DNA from: Azotosporobacter soli
GTDB taxonomy: Bacteria; Bacillota; Negativicutes; SG130
Direction: 5' to 3'
Assembly (NCBI RefSeq): GCF_030542965.1
Contig: NZ_JAUAOA010000002.1
Location: forward strand, 248,001-312,000
DNA: 64,000 bases
Both the position numbers and the translations under genes were made by a program. This document shows, piece by piece, positions 3,559-15,586 of this stretch (position 1 is its first letter; each line of letters opens with the position of its first letter). The notes under the pieces were generated by a model that had not been told where the DNA came from, searched no databases, and saw only the letters and a list, made by a program, of their open reading frames with translations.

Positions 3559-4632
3559 CTATTCCTTCACATACTCTTCTATTTGCTTTAAGGTTATTTC
3601 TCGCATATCTTCGTTCCCTAAATAGGCAGTATTCCATACGATAATTCTATCCAAACCCGTCTCTAAACTCCATTTCGGATTCCACGCAAGACGATGTTTT
3701 GCTTTGGAAATGTCCAATTTCAAATAATTGGCCTCATGAGGCTGTTCTCCTGTATTCACCTCATAGCTTGCCCCGTCGCCCCATTTGCGGCATAAGGTTT
3801 CAACAATCCATTCGACTGATTTTGCATCCGTATCATTGGGGCCAAAATTCCAGCCCTCCGCAAATTCCATTCCCGTCTCATAAAGCTCCCGGGCCAACAG
3901 CAGATAACCTCCAAGCGGTTCTACAACATGCTGCCATGGCCGTATCGCCCTTGGATTTCTGATGCCGATTTTCTCTCCATTTATCAAGGAGCGAATACAA
4001 TCGGGGATCAATCGATCTTTTGCCCAATCGCCGCCACCGATCACATTGCCGGCTCTCGCCGATGCCACTGCGGTTCCATGTTTAGCATACTCTTTAGCGT
4101 TGAAAAATGAATCACGGTATGAGGCCGTTATCAATTCCGAACAACTTTTGCTATTTGAATACGGGTCGTAACCGCCCATCGGTTCATTCTCACGGTAACC
4201 CCACGGCCATTCTTTATTTTCATAGCACTTATCGGTCGTGACATTGACAACCGCTTTGACCGAATTGCATTTTCGCACAGCCTCAAATAGATTCACCGTA
4301 CCCATCACATTAATTTCATAGGTTTCCGCCGGATTCAGATAAGACTCTCTCACCAATGGCTGAGCCGCCATATGGATGACAATCTCCGGCTGCGCTTTCA
4401 GCATTTCTGCTTGCACTTTTTCCCGATCCCGAATGTCTCCGATTATTGATGTAACAAGTTCATGTATCCGGCATAACGTAAATAGGGCTGGGTCGGTCGG
4501 CGGATTCAAAGCATATCCCGTCACTTCCGCCCCCAGCATATGCAGCCAAAGACTCAGCCATGAGCCTTTGAATCCCGTATGCCCAGTAATAAATACTTTT
4601 TTTCCGCTCCAGAAGTCCTTACTCATCTTCAT
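3559..4632 (-). CDS. rfbG: CDP-glucose 4,6-dehydratase
   Basis: 357 residues, extended SDR. Near the N-terminus it has WSGKKVFITGHTGFKGSWL, the RfbG form of the NAD motif, and later NVTTDKCYENKEWPWGYRE, which is typical of CDP-glucose 4,6-dehydratases. The catalytic Tyr-Lys is in GGYDPYSNSKSCSE. It converts CDP-D-glucose to CDP-4-keto-6-deoxyglucose. The gene starts 9 bases after the rfbF stop, so both enzymes of the first two steps are paired. Full length for the family. Confidence 0.95.
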   Translation of the reverse strand: MKMSKDFWSGKKVFITGHTGFKGSWLSLWLHMLGAEVTGYALNPPTDPALFTLCRIHELVTSIIGDIRDREKVQAEMLKAQPEIVIHMAAQPLVRESYLNPAETYEINVMGTVNLFEAVRKCNSVKAVVNVTTDKCYENKEWPWGYRENEPMGGYDPYSNSKSCSELITASYRDSFFNAKEYAKHGTAVASARAGNVIGGGDWAKDRLIPDCIRSLINGEKIGIRNPRAIRPWQHVVEPLGGYLLLARELYETGMEFAEGWNFGPNDTDAKSVEWIVETLCRKWGDGASYEVNTGEQPHEANYLKLDISKAKHRLAWNPKWSLETGLDRIIVWNTAYLGNEDMREITLKQIEEYVKE

Positions 4633-4641
4633 AAAGATTCT

Positions 4642-5415
4642 TCACCACAATTTCCATGGCGCTTTTTTATTCCGCCATAACTCTTCCAATGCATCTTTGT
4701 CACGTACTGTGTCCATTGGTTGCCAGAATCCGTCATGCTTGTATGCGACCAATTGATTATCCTTCGCCAGATTTTCCATCGGTGAACGCTCGAATATCGT
4801 GCTGTCTCCTTCGATATAGTCAAAAATTTCCGGTTCTAAAACGAAGAATCCCGCATTGATCCAACCGCCGTCCCCTTGAGGCTTTTCTTGAAAGCCAGCC
4901 ACCGTATTCTCTGCAGTTATATCCAATGCCCCAAAGCGGCCTGACGGCTGAACCGAAGTGACCGTCGCACGTTTGCCGTGAGCCTTGTGATATTGAACCA
5001 GACTTTTAATATCTACATCACTGACGCCATCGCCATAAGTCAACATGAATGTCTCATTTCCAATATACGGCTGCGCTCTTTTCACCCGCCCCCCAGTCAT
5101 CGTCTCAATTCCAGTATTCACCAAAGTCACTTTCCACGGCTCGGCTTGATGGTTATGAATAAACTGCTGGTTAGACATCGTAAAATCAAAAGTAATGTCT
5201 GCTTCATGCAAAAAATAATGTGCAAAATATTCCTTGATGCAATAGCCCTTATAACCAAGGCAGATCACAAAATCATTAAATCCATAATGCGAATACAGTT
5301 TCATAATATGCCAAAGAATCGGGCGATGTCCTATCTCAATCATCGGTTTGGGCTTCAAATGAGATTCTTCGCTTATACGTGTGCCAAACCCGCCTGCTAA
5401 AATAACAACCTTCAT
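4642..5415 (-). CDS. rfbF: Glucose-1-phosphate cytidylyltransferase
   Basis: 257 residues, the usual length. The N-terminal nucleotidyltransferase signature VVILAGGFGTRISEES is followed by KPKPMIEIGHRPILWHIMK; the C-terminus ends in DGFWQPMDTVRDKDALEELW, both characteristic of RfbF. It makes CDP-glucose from CTP and glucose-1-phosphate, feeding RfbG. The ATG overlaps the preceding glycosyltransferase stop (5412-5415), which ties the CDP-sugar genes to the flagellin glycosylation genes upstream. Confidence 0.95.
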   Translation of the reverse strand: MKVVILAGGFGTRISEESHLKPKPMIEIGHRPILWHIMKLYSHYGFNDFVICLGYKGYCIKEYFAHYFLHEADITFDFTMSNQQFIHNHQAEPWKVTLVNTGIETMTGGRVKRAQPYIGNETFMLTYGDGVSDVDIKSLVQYHKAHGKRATVTSVQPSGRFGALDITAENTVAGFQEKPQGDGGWINAGFFVLEPEIFDYIEGDSTIFERSPMENLAKDNQLVAYKHDGFWQPMDTVRDKDALEELWRNKKAPWKLW

Positions 5416-10876: not shown

Positions 10877-10915
10877 AATTCCTCCTTGATTTTAATCGGG
10901 CATCCTTGCCCTGAT
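10877..10915 (-). promoter_or_regulatory. Flagellin leader: CsrA-type hairpin plus SD-overlapping CsrA site
   Basis: On the minus strand a hairpin AATC-A-GGGC / AAGGAT / GCCC-GATT (10893-10915) shows AAGGAT in the loop. Twenty bases downstream, ATCAAGGAGG (10881-10890) carries a second AAGGA inside the Shine-Dalgarno sequence. CsrA dimers bind ANGGA, best in hairpin loops. In Bacillus subtilis the hag leader has the same two-site arrangement (one upstream hairpin, one on the SD), and FliW frees CsrA when flagellin is low. csrA and fliW are both in this locus. Binding itself is inferred. Confidence 0.75.
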
Positions 10916-10985
10916 TTTTTTATGAGTCAGTCGCCGAAGTGCTCCCGGCCGGATAACACTCCAGCTTCTGAACTACTCATTAAAG

Positions 10986-11012
10986 ATATCGTAGCTCCCG
11001 GAATAATCCTTA
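10986..11012 (-). promoter_or_regulatory. Sigma-28 (SigD/FliA)-type promoter for flagellin
   Basis: On the minus strand, TAAG (11009-11012), 15 bases, then TACGATAT (10986-10993). The consensus for flagellar sigma-28 in Bacillus is TAAA-N15-GCCGATAT. The predicted start is near 10979, giving a leader of about 108 bases that includes the CsrA-type hairpin. Confidence 0.75.
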
Positions 11013-11045: not shown

Positions 11046-11357
11046 TTAACGCTTGCGATCCATCCAAAGCCCCGTGTCTTCTTGCCCCATACTTTCGTAA
11101 GCCCGTGAAACTTGTTGGCTTTGTTTCATCTGATACAGCTTCTGACTTAATAAACTCTTCAGTTCCTGATCGAGTCGATTGATTTCATCATAAAGCTCCG
11201 CCTGCAAAGGCTCTGCAGGTTCACTTTGCATTTTTTGCCGCTCTTCCAACAAACTATTGAAAGTCTCCCAATCTTCGCAAACAAGAAATTTTTTCAATTC
11301 ATTTGTAAAATAGAGATATTTTTGCCAGTATTCTGATTCGCTTGCCGCAATCGTCAT
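11046..11357 (-). CDS. FliT-like flagellar protein
   Basis: 103 residues, almost all helical (YWQKYLYFTNELKKFL, then LNRLDQELKSLL-type heptads). It overlaps the fliS stop by four bases, in the place fliT holds in fliD-fliS-fliT operons. FliT chaperones the filament cap FliD. Sequence similarity to FliT is weak by eye, so the name rests largely on context. Confidence 0.6.
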   Translation of the reverse strand: MTIAASESEYWQKYLYFTNELKKFLVCEDWETFNSLLEERQKMQSEPAEPLQAELYDEINRLDQELKSLLSQKLYQMKQSQQVSRAYESMGQEDTGLWMDRKR

Positions 11358-13772: not shown

Positions 13773-14183
13773 TTATGCTTTTTTATCCAGCAAGACCCCA
13801 ACATAATCGCGGATCCGCGCCATCGTGTCAAGCAGTTCTTCCGGCGGAAACTGCTTCAGCACTTTCTGCTGCTGCATGTCCACCACTTGGACGATCAGTT
13901 GCTTCGTTCCGTCATGAATCTTAAAGCGTATATCGGCGTTAATCAGTTCCATGAAATGATTCAGTTCCTGGCTGATATTCTTCACATCAGTCCGCGTCAA
14001 TTTCTTGGACGCTTCCAGGTACAGATCCTGGGCGCTGGCCTCCTGTTCCTTAAACGATGTTTTCGCAACGTTGCCATCCTTGGTCGCGCTGGCCGTAGAA
14101 GTATCTGCTGCAGCCGGTCTGGCTGGAGAAGACGCATATCCTGTGCTCGCGGCATCCAGCGTTTTTACATTGTTGACATCCAT
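13773..14183 (-). CDS. flaG: FlaG family protein
   Basis: 136 residues. The N-terminal half is low complexity (Ala/Thr/Ser); the C-terminal half is the FlaG domain (LNADIRFKIHDGT-type, here LINADIRFKIHDGTKQLIVQ, then KQFPPEELLDTMARIRDYVG). FlaG affects filament length in other bacteria. First gene of a flaG-fliD-fliS-fliT-like unit with its own sigma-28-type promoter just upstream. Confidence 0.9.
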   Translation of the reverse strand: MDVNNVKTLDAASTGYASSPARPAAADTSTASATKDGNVAKTSFKEQEASAQDLYLEASKKLTRTDVKNISQELNHFMELINADIRFKIHDGTKQLIVQVVDMQQQKVLKQFPPEELLDTMARIRDYVGVLLDKKA

Positions 14184-14226
14184 GTCATCACACCCCGCTC
14201 ATTATTCATCAAACTCTTCATTTATA

Positions 14227-14257: not shown

Positions 14258-14491
14258 TTATTTTCGTCCCGGCAATTTTTTTATCGCCTCCAGCGCTTCG
14301 GCGCTCAGCGGCGCTAACGCTTGCTTATTCTCGGCAACAATCGCCGCATAAATTTCACCGCGATAAATTTTCACGTCTTTCGGCGCTTCGATAGCGATCT
14401 TGACGTTATCACCGCGCACTTCGACAATCGTAAGTACGATATTGTCGCCAATGATCAATTTTTCACCCGCCCTGCGAGTCAATGCCAGCAT
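14258..14491 (-). CDS. csrA: Carbon storage regulator CsrA
   Basis: 77 residues. Begins MLALTRRAGEKLIIGDNI and contains VKIAIEAPKDVKIYRGEIY, a full CsrA; the C-terminal tail of about 17 residues is a little longer than in E. coli (61 residues). Dimeric RNA-binding protein that blocks translation at ANGGA sites. Starts two bases after the fliW stop, as in Bacillus, and its likely target is the flagellin leader in this window. Confidence 0.96.
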   Translation of the reverse strand: MLALTRRAGEKLIIGDNIVLTIVEVRGDNVKIAIEAPKDVKIYRGEIYAAIVAENKQALAPLSAEALEAIKKLPGRK

Positions 14492-14493
14492 CG

Positions 14494-14955
14494 CTATTTC
14501 CCCTCCCCGCTCGTCGTTTCCTTAGGAAAACCGTCGGGAAACAAACGTTGGCGCAATGAATATTGGGAGTTTTCCAGCACAACCTGGCGTGCTTTGCCGC
14601 TTTTGCGATTGATCACCAGCGGCGCCAACAGGTTGGCGGTCATTTCTTCCGTCTTCTCCGGTACTGTGACAATGTTGAGAATTTGCGGCGGCTCATCCGG
14701 TGATACTGCTAGCTCAATTGCGATGGCATCCTCGAGTTCAAACTGATAGTCGCCAAAAAATTGAAACGCGTCGACCACCATGAAGGTCAGTTCCGGATTG
14801 TTTAGCGCCTGCAAAAAGGCAAAAGGACTTTCTTCACCATATGCGATAAACGCAAAGCGCTGTTCTTCCGGAAAACCAAGCATGCCGTGTTCGAAACAAA
14901 GCACATCTTTTTCGTCGACTTCTACTATGCCGAAGCGGGTCGATTCAATCTGCAT
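14494..14955 (-). CDS. fliW: Flagellar assembly factor FliW (copy 1)
   Basis: 153 residues. Contains the FliW pattern FEHGMLGFPEEQRFAFI, SPFAFLQALNNPELTFMVVD and LLAPLVINRKSGKARQVVL. FliW binds CsrA and flagellin alternately and so couples flagellin synthesis to export. Directly upstream of csrA. A second FliW is encoded at 24813-25265. Confidence 0.95.
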   Translation of the reverse strand: MQIESTRFGIVEVDEKDVLCFEHGMLGFPEEQRFAFIAYGEESPFAFLQALNNPELTFMVVDAFQFFGDYQFELEDAIAIELAVSPDEPPQILNIVTVPEKTEEMTANLLAPLVINRKSGKARQVVLENSQYSLRQRLFPDGFPKETTSGEGK

Positions 14956-15007: not shown

Positions 15008-15586
15008 TCAAGCCCTTATGTCCATCGTAGCATAACTTGCTTCCGTCGTCCAAAACTTTACGCTTTGGTATTGCTGCATACCGACGTTCACTTCTCCCCA
15101 ATTCAATTGATTATCAAACGTCGCACTCGTCGGATTGAATTGGATGCTACCCGGCTGAACCTGAAATTCGACCGGTTGCGCCTCATAGTGAATCTCCGGC
15201 GGCTCCAACCAAGCCCATGTGATTTCCTTTTGCGCCTTTATAGAAGACTCCGCTGCCAACTGGGTTACCGTAGCGCCACTTCTCGCATAATTACCCAGTC
15301 GGTCACCGTCTTCTGCCGTTTTAGCGACAAACTCCTGCGCCGCCTGCATGCCACGGTCCGCGTCTTCCCTGATCATCTGTTCCCTTGTCTTGATGCCGTA
15401 AGATGCACGCATCGCGGTAGAGTCGATCGTTAACTTCCCTTGCGGCGAGTGGATTTCCACCGTCGCCGCTTCGGTTTCGATGTTCAGCTCTGCCGGCGCG
15501 GTCTGCAGCTGAATTTGCGGCGGTTTGCTATCAAGACTGATTTTTGCATATTGTTGGCTGATATTCAGTAGCAGCATCGCGTCCAC
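15008..15586 (-). CDS. DUF6470 (YviE-like) protein
   Basis: 192 residues, Gln/Ala-rich beta-type segments (KPPQIQLQTAPAELNIETE, TVEIHSPQGKLTIDSTAM). It holds the place of yviE between flgL and fliW in Bacillus. Function unknown in the family. Starts four bases after the flgL stop. Confidence 0.8.
   Translation of the reverse strand: MDAMLLLNISQQYAKISLDSKPPQIQLQTAPAELNIETEAATVEIHSPQGKLTIDSTAMRASYGIKTREQMIREDADRGMQAAQEFVAKTAEDGDRLGNYARSGATVTQLAAESSIKAQKEITWAWLEPPEIHYEAQPVEFQVQPGSIQFNPTSATFDNQLNWGEVNVGMQQYQSVKFWTTEASYATMDIRA

Follow-up and report, generated by a model that had tools for sequence, protein, structure and literature searches.

Bacillus subtilis possesses a FliW-CsrA-Hag circuit, in which FliW also binds the hag leader for a reason that the excerpted source gives as unexplained (PMC6529632). 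Two CsrA sites occur in this leader, BS1 (A51-A55) and BS2 (C75-G82), and the sections of the source used here also give predicted sites, BS1 TGACAAGGATGT and BS2 CTAAGGAGGG, for the 91-nt leader of C. difficile fliC (PMC8523840). In flaA of C. jejuni, which belongs to another phylum than the DNA analysed here, CsrA binds two GGA stem-loops 21 nt apart and FliW serves as the antagonist; a palindromic loop is not mentioned in the sections used of that report (PMC4894983). Outside the bacteria, oskar and bicoid are described as dimerising mRNAs in the part of the source available (PMC7357161).

The window, by which we mean the whole 64,000-nucleotide stretch of Azotosporobacter soli DNA that was analysed, carries a flagellin gene whose leader resembles these systems. 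As in B. subtilis hag, to the extent that the excerpted sources describe it, a hairpin GGA and a second GGA in the Shine-Dalgarno (SD) sequence occur behind a sigma-28-type promoter, and fliW and csrA are adjacent; the two-site leader is likewise shared with the FliW-CsrA-FliC system of C. difficile in the sections used of PMC8523840. The features are collected in Table 1, and in transcription they are met in the order promoter, 5′ hairpin, A-rich linker, AGGA-loop hairpin, AAGGAGG and flagellin. The promoter resembles the sigma-28 consensus TAAA-N15-GCCGATAA, and the putative +1 near 10980 gives a flagellin leader of about 109 nt, in good agreement with the 108 bases or so of the original prediction. 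When 133 nt around the leader were folded, the fold was better than those of all 200 dinucleotide shuffles (z −4.05). The csrA/fliW pair (14258-14955), also correctly assigned to this locus in the original prediction, is confirmed by Pfam matches and lies 3 kb from the flagellin gene, and flaG, fliD, fliS, flgK and a FlgL-like gene occur in the same locus. An ORF of 103 aa without a Pfam match is situated between flagellin and fliS (11046-11357, minus strand), and a DUF6470 gene immediately upstream of fliW (15008-15586, minus strand).

Table 1. Features of the flagellin locus, in window coordinates
Feature	Position	Strand	Basis
Flagellin, 411 aa	9636..10871	(-)	Pfam PF00669 (Flagellin_N), PF00700 (Flagellin_C)
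Shine-Dalgarno AAGGAGG with second GGA (site 2, BS2-like)	10881..10887	(-)	sequence
CsrA-type hairpin GGGCA-AGGA-UGCCC, 14 nt (site 1, BS1-like)	10898..10911	(-)	sequence and folding
5′ hairpin of the leader, 59 nt, starting at about +1, with palindromic apical loop	10922..10980	(-)	folding; counterparts in relatives
Self-complementary loop CCGGCCGG (core CGGCCG), proposed kissing site	10945..10952	(-)	sequence and loop-loop duplex energy
Sigma-28-type promoter TAAG-N15-TACGATAT	10986..11012	(-)	sequence reading
csrA	14258..14491	(-)	PF02599, E 1.3e-23
fliW, adjoining csrA on its upstream side	14494..14955	(-)	PF02623, E 1.1e-36

A two-site CsrA arrangement like that of hag had been predicted for this leader, and both sites, a hairpin-loop GGA and an SD GGA, were located. 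The hairpin (−6.8 kcal/mol) is as predicted; its loop is AGGA, and the AAGGAT that had been placed in the loop is this AGGA plus the closing A-U pair. The SD GGA begins 20 nt after the loop GGA, exactly the spacing that had been given, and 17 nt lie in between; a FliW-CsrA-flagellin leader is expected to carry a looped GGA and an SD GGA separated by about 18-21 nt, and this leader does. For a wider comparison, 266 usable flagellin leaders were assembled from 80 named loci and from further genomes of the same class and of Bacillota. Leaders with a wrong, missing or truncated start were dropped (L004, L050, L074, L077, L088, L094, L099, L114 and L207), 11 of 121 were not parsed, near-identical leaders were removed by a k-mer filter, and L291-L295 were judged by eye only; the leader of the Anaerospora hongkongensis locus (L043) is identical to that of a genome of the same class (L120). 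The module was scored wherever a hairpin with at least 4 bp and a looped GGA stood no more than 60 nt upstream of the SD GGA; the SD GGA itself is missing in just one of 237 leaders (L185). Among the 236 nonredundant flagellin leaders that do have it, 209 carry the CsrA-type hairpin by this test, against 47.1 expected from dinucleotide shuffles, and the gap from one GGA to the other is most often 17-23 nt; the 27 leaders that fail include paralogues and distant flagellins. Of 165 leaders that precede other genes in 78 of these loci, 31 have such a hairpin, and flagellin is the one case among the 59 ORF starts of the window with an SD GGA. Moreover, both GGAs are invariant in all 29 aligned Negativicutes leaders, a set picked for a sigma-28 box and CGGCCG, and the loss of the loop GGA, which the original prediction had named as refuting it if seen in close relatives with otherwise conserved leaders, was not seen in them.

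The distribution of the regulators agrees with the reading of this leader as a CsrA/FliW site, since the hairpin is missing where FliW is missing. Across the 50 genomes examined, all of them belonging to named loci, CsrA was found in 47 and FliW in 46: CsrA is absent from G313, G328 and G352, and FliW is absent from these three and from G336, where the CsrA matches are weak and tandem. All four leaders of the FliW-less genomes (L049, L066, L079, L115) lack the CsrA-type hairpin, which occurs in 43 of the 46 genomes with FliW (Fisher p = 0.00015 for FliW and 0.0018 for CsrA). These four are among seven leaders that fail the hairpin test; the others (L071, L097, L110) have FliW in the genome, and by eye their GGA lies in a loop that is larger or imperfect. 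The CsrA part thereby offers a clean comparative test, namely no FliW, no hairpin. The 3′ half of the leader is very probably to be read as part of a FliW-CsrA-flagellin loop with predicted binding, in which a CsrA dimer would bridge the loop GGA and the SD GGA, block ribosomes and repress flagellin, until flagellin export frees FliW to remove CsrA from the leader. The module itself is ordinary across the phylum and belongs to the known B. subtilis / C. difficile circuit type, which it carries into another Negativicutes genome. In fact, the earlier suggestion of a full homeostasis loop outside the Bacilli is upheld by the comparison of leaders and genes but overstated its novelty, as C. difficile and C. 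jejuni had already been published.

Similar motifs were observed elsewhere. At flaG, a perfect hairpin, TGACA-TGGA-TGTCA, covers the start codon (14174-14187, minus strand) and resembles a CsrA site over AUG; by eye, a start-codon hairpin occurs at flaG in five of 30 loci (L301, L305, L312, L316, which is the window, and L320). A second type of Negativicutes flagellin (MVISTNMSALNTTNQ-like), seen in L035, L161, L162, L167, L168 and L169, has a near-constant GGTGCACGGAAGCTAAATTT before the SD, with a CsrA-like GGA.

The more unusual part of the leader is its 5′ hairpin, which was absent from the original prediction. Hairpins with a palindromic loop, positioned between the promoter and the CsrA hairpin, recur in Negativicutes, Clostridia and Bacilli; self-complementarity over at least 6 nt was looked for, and the palindrome is 6 nt long in the family and 8 nt in the window. 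The hairpin base lies a median of 17 nt from the putative +1, and the palindrome at +9 to +42. In the window, the minimum free energy is −27.3 kcal/mol, or −23.0 kcal/mol with the palindrome held single-stranded, as three pairs form inside the loop and opening them costs 4.3 kcal/mol. The loop-loop duplex of CCGGCCGG comes to −17.3 kcal/mol, and hexamer duplexes of the GC-bearing palindromes to about −6 to −12.5 kcal/mol. CGGCCG is invariant and the stem letters are variable in 29 Negativicutes leaders picked for this feature.

In the main test of the palindrome, 247 nonredundant leaders were each represented by their most stable hairpin with a loop of 8-9 nt, chosen by the stem alone. The fixed loop position holds a perfect 6-nt palindrome in 44 of the 95 resulting flagellin hairpins. 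Shuffled leaders gave 7 of 413, and the 48 control hairpins obtained from 165 leaders of other genes in the same loci gave none. CGGCCG is the commonest loop palindrome, and self-complementarity is preserved through compensatory letter change: 11 of the 62 hairpins with other loops are palindromic, against a mean of 0.98 and a maximum of 6 in 10,000 column shuffles. These comprise CGCGCG, CGTACG and GGGCCC, twice each, together with GGCGCC, TCCGGA, TGGCCA and the AT-rich ATATAT and TTTAAA, the last two of which may have arisen by chance. As eight of the 11 have non-complementary flanks, they are not mere perfect inverted repeats. Unpaired purines flank the hexamer in most of the palindromic hairpins: in the 44 loops, the base ahead of it is mostly G, A or C, and the base behind it is A in 28 and G in 13. 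The window loop is larger than 8-9 nt, and its 8-nt palindrome has U and G on its two sides. Under a second definition, confined to sigma-28 leaders and loops of 7-10 nt, 56 of 91 hairpins are palindromic against 34 of 1060, and without CGGCCG 14 of 46 against 2.6 in loop-letter shuffles. A looser count, which also omitted six hand-named duplicates, gave 65 of 101 against 13.4; in all these comparisons the shuffles overstate significance somewhat, because related leaders are not independent, and the variety of palindromes found is the firmer argument.

The stem bears the mark of covariation as well. When 29 leaders were aligned with MAFFT, RNAalifold found the CsrA hairpin alone, as MAFFT misaligns the variable 5′ stems, and the stem test was therefore anchored on the loop core, with the 3′ flanks dealt anew among leaders. 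For 51 leaders chosen on GCGGCCGA alone, the contiguous stem averaged 4.47 bp, against a redealt mean of 1.41 and a maximum of 2.25 in 2000; for the 33 leaders of the CCGGCCGG set, the window included, it was 5.12 bp against 3.09 (maximum 3.85). It is quite probable, judging from these comparisons, that the palindrome is a selected RNA feature.

Of course, the hairpin is not universal. Under the main definition, 152 of the 247 nonredundant leaders have none, in part because bulged stems and loops of more than 9 nt are rejected, and among the 95 hairpins chosen by stem, 51 lack a palindromic loop. The window leader itself fails this definition, and its best hairpin under the second definition is another one. 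A palindromic loop is absent from four Clostridium leaders (L040, L080, L109, L113) and, unlike the window, from relatives of B. subtilis, namely five leaders of three genomes with flagellin near B. subtilis Hag, so that B. subtilis is possibly a poor organism in which to see it. Within the window, the other sigma-28-like matches (before flaG, before fliD and inside genes) are, by eye, not followed by such a hairpin. Rfam returned no match in the window at the gathering score, and nothing below E 0.43 when the leader was searched to E 10; in 12 related loci no family was matched in the flagellin leader, and matches were confined to L103, with a c-di-GMP-I riboswitch, and to L060, with a group I intron at the 3′ end of the flagellin gene of Geobacillus jurassicus (4351-4709). 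A literature search turned up no description of the 5′ hairpin, and flagellin leaders are not mentioned in the main text of the RNA-discovery papers searched; the hairpin has apparently not been described so far, and subscription work on the hag leader (Yakhnin 2007, Mukherjee 2011) may hold an earlier mention. As a separate observation, a nearly letter-identical element, AATAAGCCGAGTGGCCATGAGGCTTGTTATA, with the palindromic loop TGGCCA, lies upstream of flagellin in L028, L032, L138, L146 and L150, at genes without a clear sigma-28 box, and variants with other loops occur in L289, L079 and L071.

The sequences show that the two structures are present and conserved and that the palindrome persists through letter change, and from this we infer CsrA binding here, the formation of dimers and any effect on expression. 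On balance, the leader would seem to hold two modules, the CsrA switch and a 5′ hairpin for kissing-loop dimerisation of flagellin mRNA. The GC-rich self-complementary loop could pair with its counterpart on another flagellin mRNA to give a kissing-loop dimer, a homodimerisation that we consider about evenly poised. Dimerisation would depend on mRNA concentration, and since flagellin mRNA is very abundant, a concentration-dependent switch is possible. Possible effects of a dimer are protection of the 5′ end, clustering of the mRNA at the place of flagellin export, or a change in the use of CsrA by determining which sites share one CsrA dimer. The chances are roughly equal for and against flagellin mRNA dimers being Bacillota-wide, formed through a conserved 5′ kissing-loop hairpin beside the CsrA switch, with tandem paralogues able to become hetero-pairs. 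Such a pair may occur in G076, where three flagellin genes lie in tandem: the first two have the loops CGGCCA (L125) and TGGCCG (L130), which are not self-complementary but fully complementary to each other, and the third (L131) lacks the loop. This would fit mRNA-mRNA pairing, and as a single case, expected about 1 in 18 times by chance, it could be a coincidence; no partner was found for a similar CGGCCA loop in L144 (G021).

Bacterial mRNA is commonly protected by 5′ hairpins, and it is conceivable, if unlikely, that only the CsrA module matters and that the 5′ hairpin is a plain stabiliser with an incidental loop. Its start near +1 and the lineages without a palindromic loop would suit such a role, yet the loop (CGGCCG) is the most conserved part of the structure, and changed loops tend to remain palindromic. 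Slightly less probable is pairing of the loop in trans with an sRNA or mRNA of the same palindrome in place of a second flagellin mRNA: self-complementarity would permit it, and the G076 paralogues would pair better with each other than with themselves, but no partner was found in the loci covered, where none of the 48 hairpins before other genes has such a loop. The palindrome follows closely on the promoter, at +9 to +42 of the flagellin gene, and might instead be bound as DNA by a dimeric transcription regulator. This is very improbable, as the letters shift to unrelated palindromes, the flanks are mostly mismatched purines, the promoter distance is variable and the long stem covaries in base pairs, all of which form the pattern of an RNA rather than of a DNA site.

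If dimerisation of flagellin mRNA does take place, it would represent a widespread bacterial mRNA-mRNA dimerisation, and one involving an mRNA that ranks among the most abundant in motile cells; the hairpin would then bear on how the level, stability and localisation of flagellin mRNA are regulated. The closest parallels are the kissing loops of the HIV-1 DIS and of Drosophila oskar, which like the flagellin hairpin present a 6-nt GC-rich palindrome in a loop. The HIV-1 DIS has a purine-flanked loop of 9 nt, and the flagellin palindromic hairpins, with mostly G or GG before the hexamer and A or G after it, recall these flanks. Unlike the DIS and oskar elements, the flagellin hairpin is part of a bacterial mRNA leader and has a CsrA switch as its neighbour, and its dimer is a proposal drawn from sequence.
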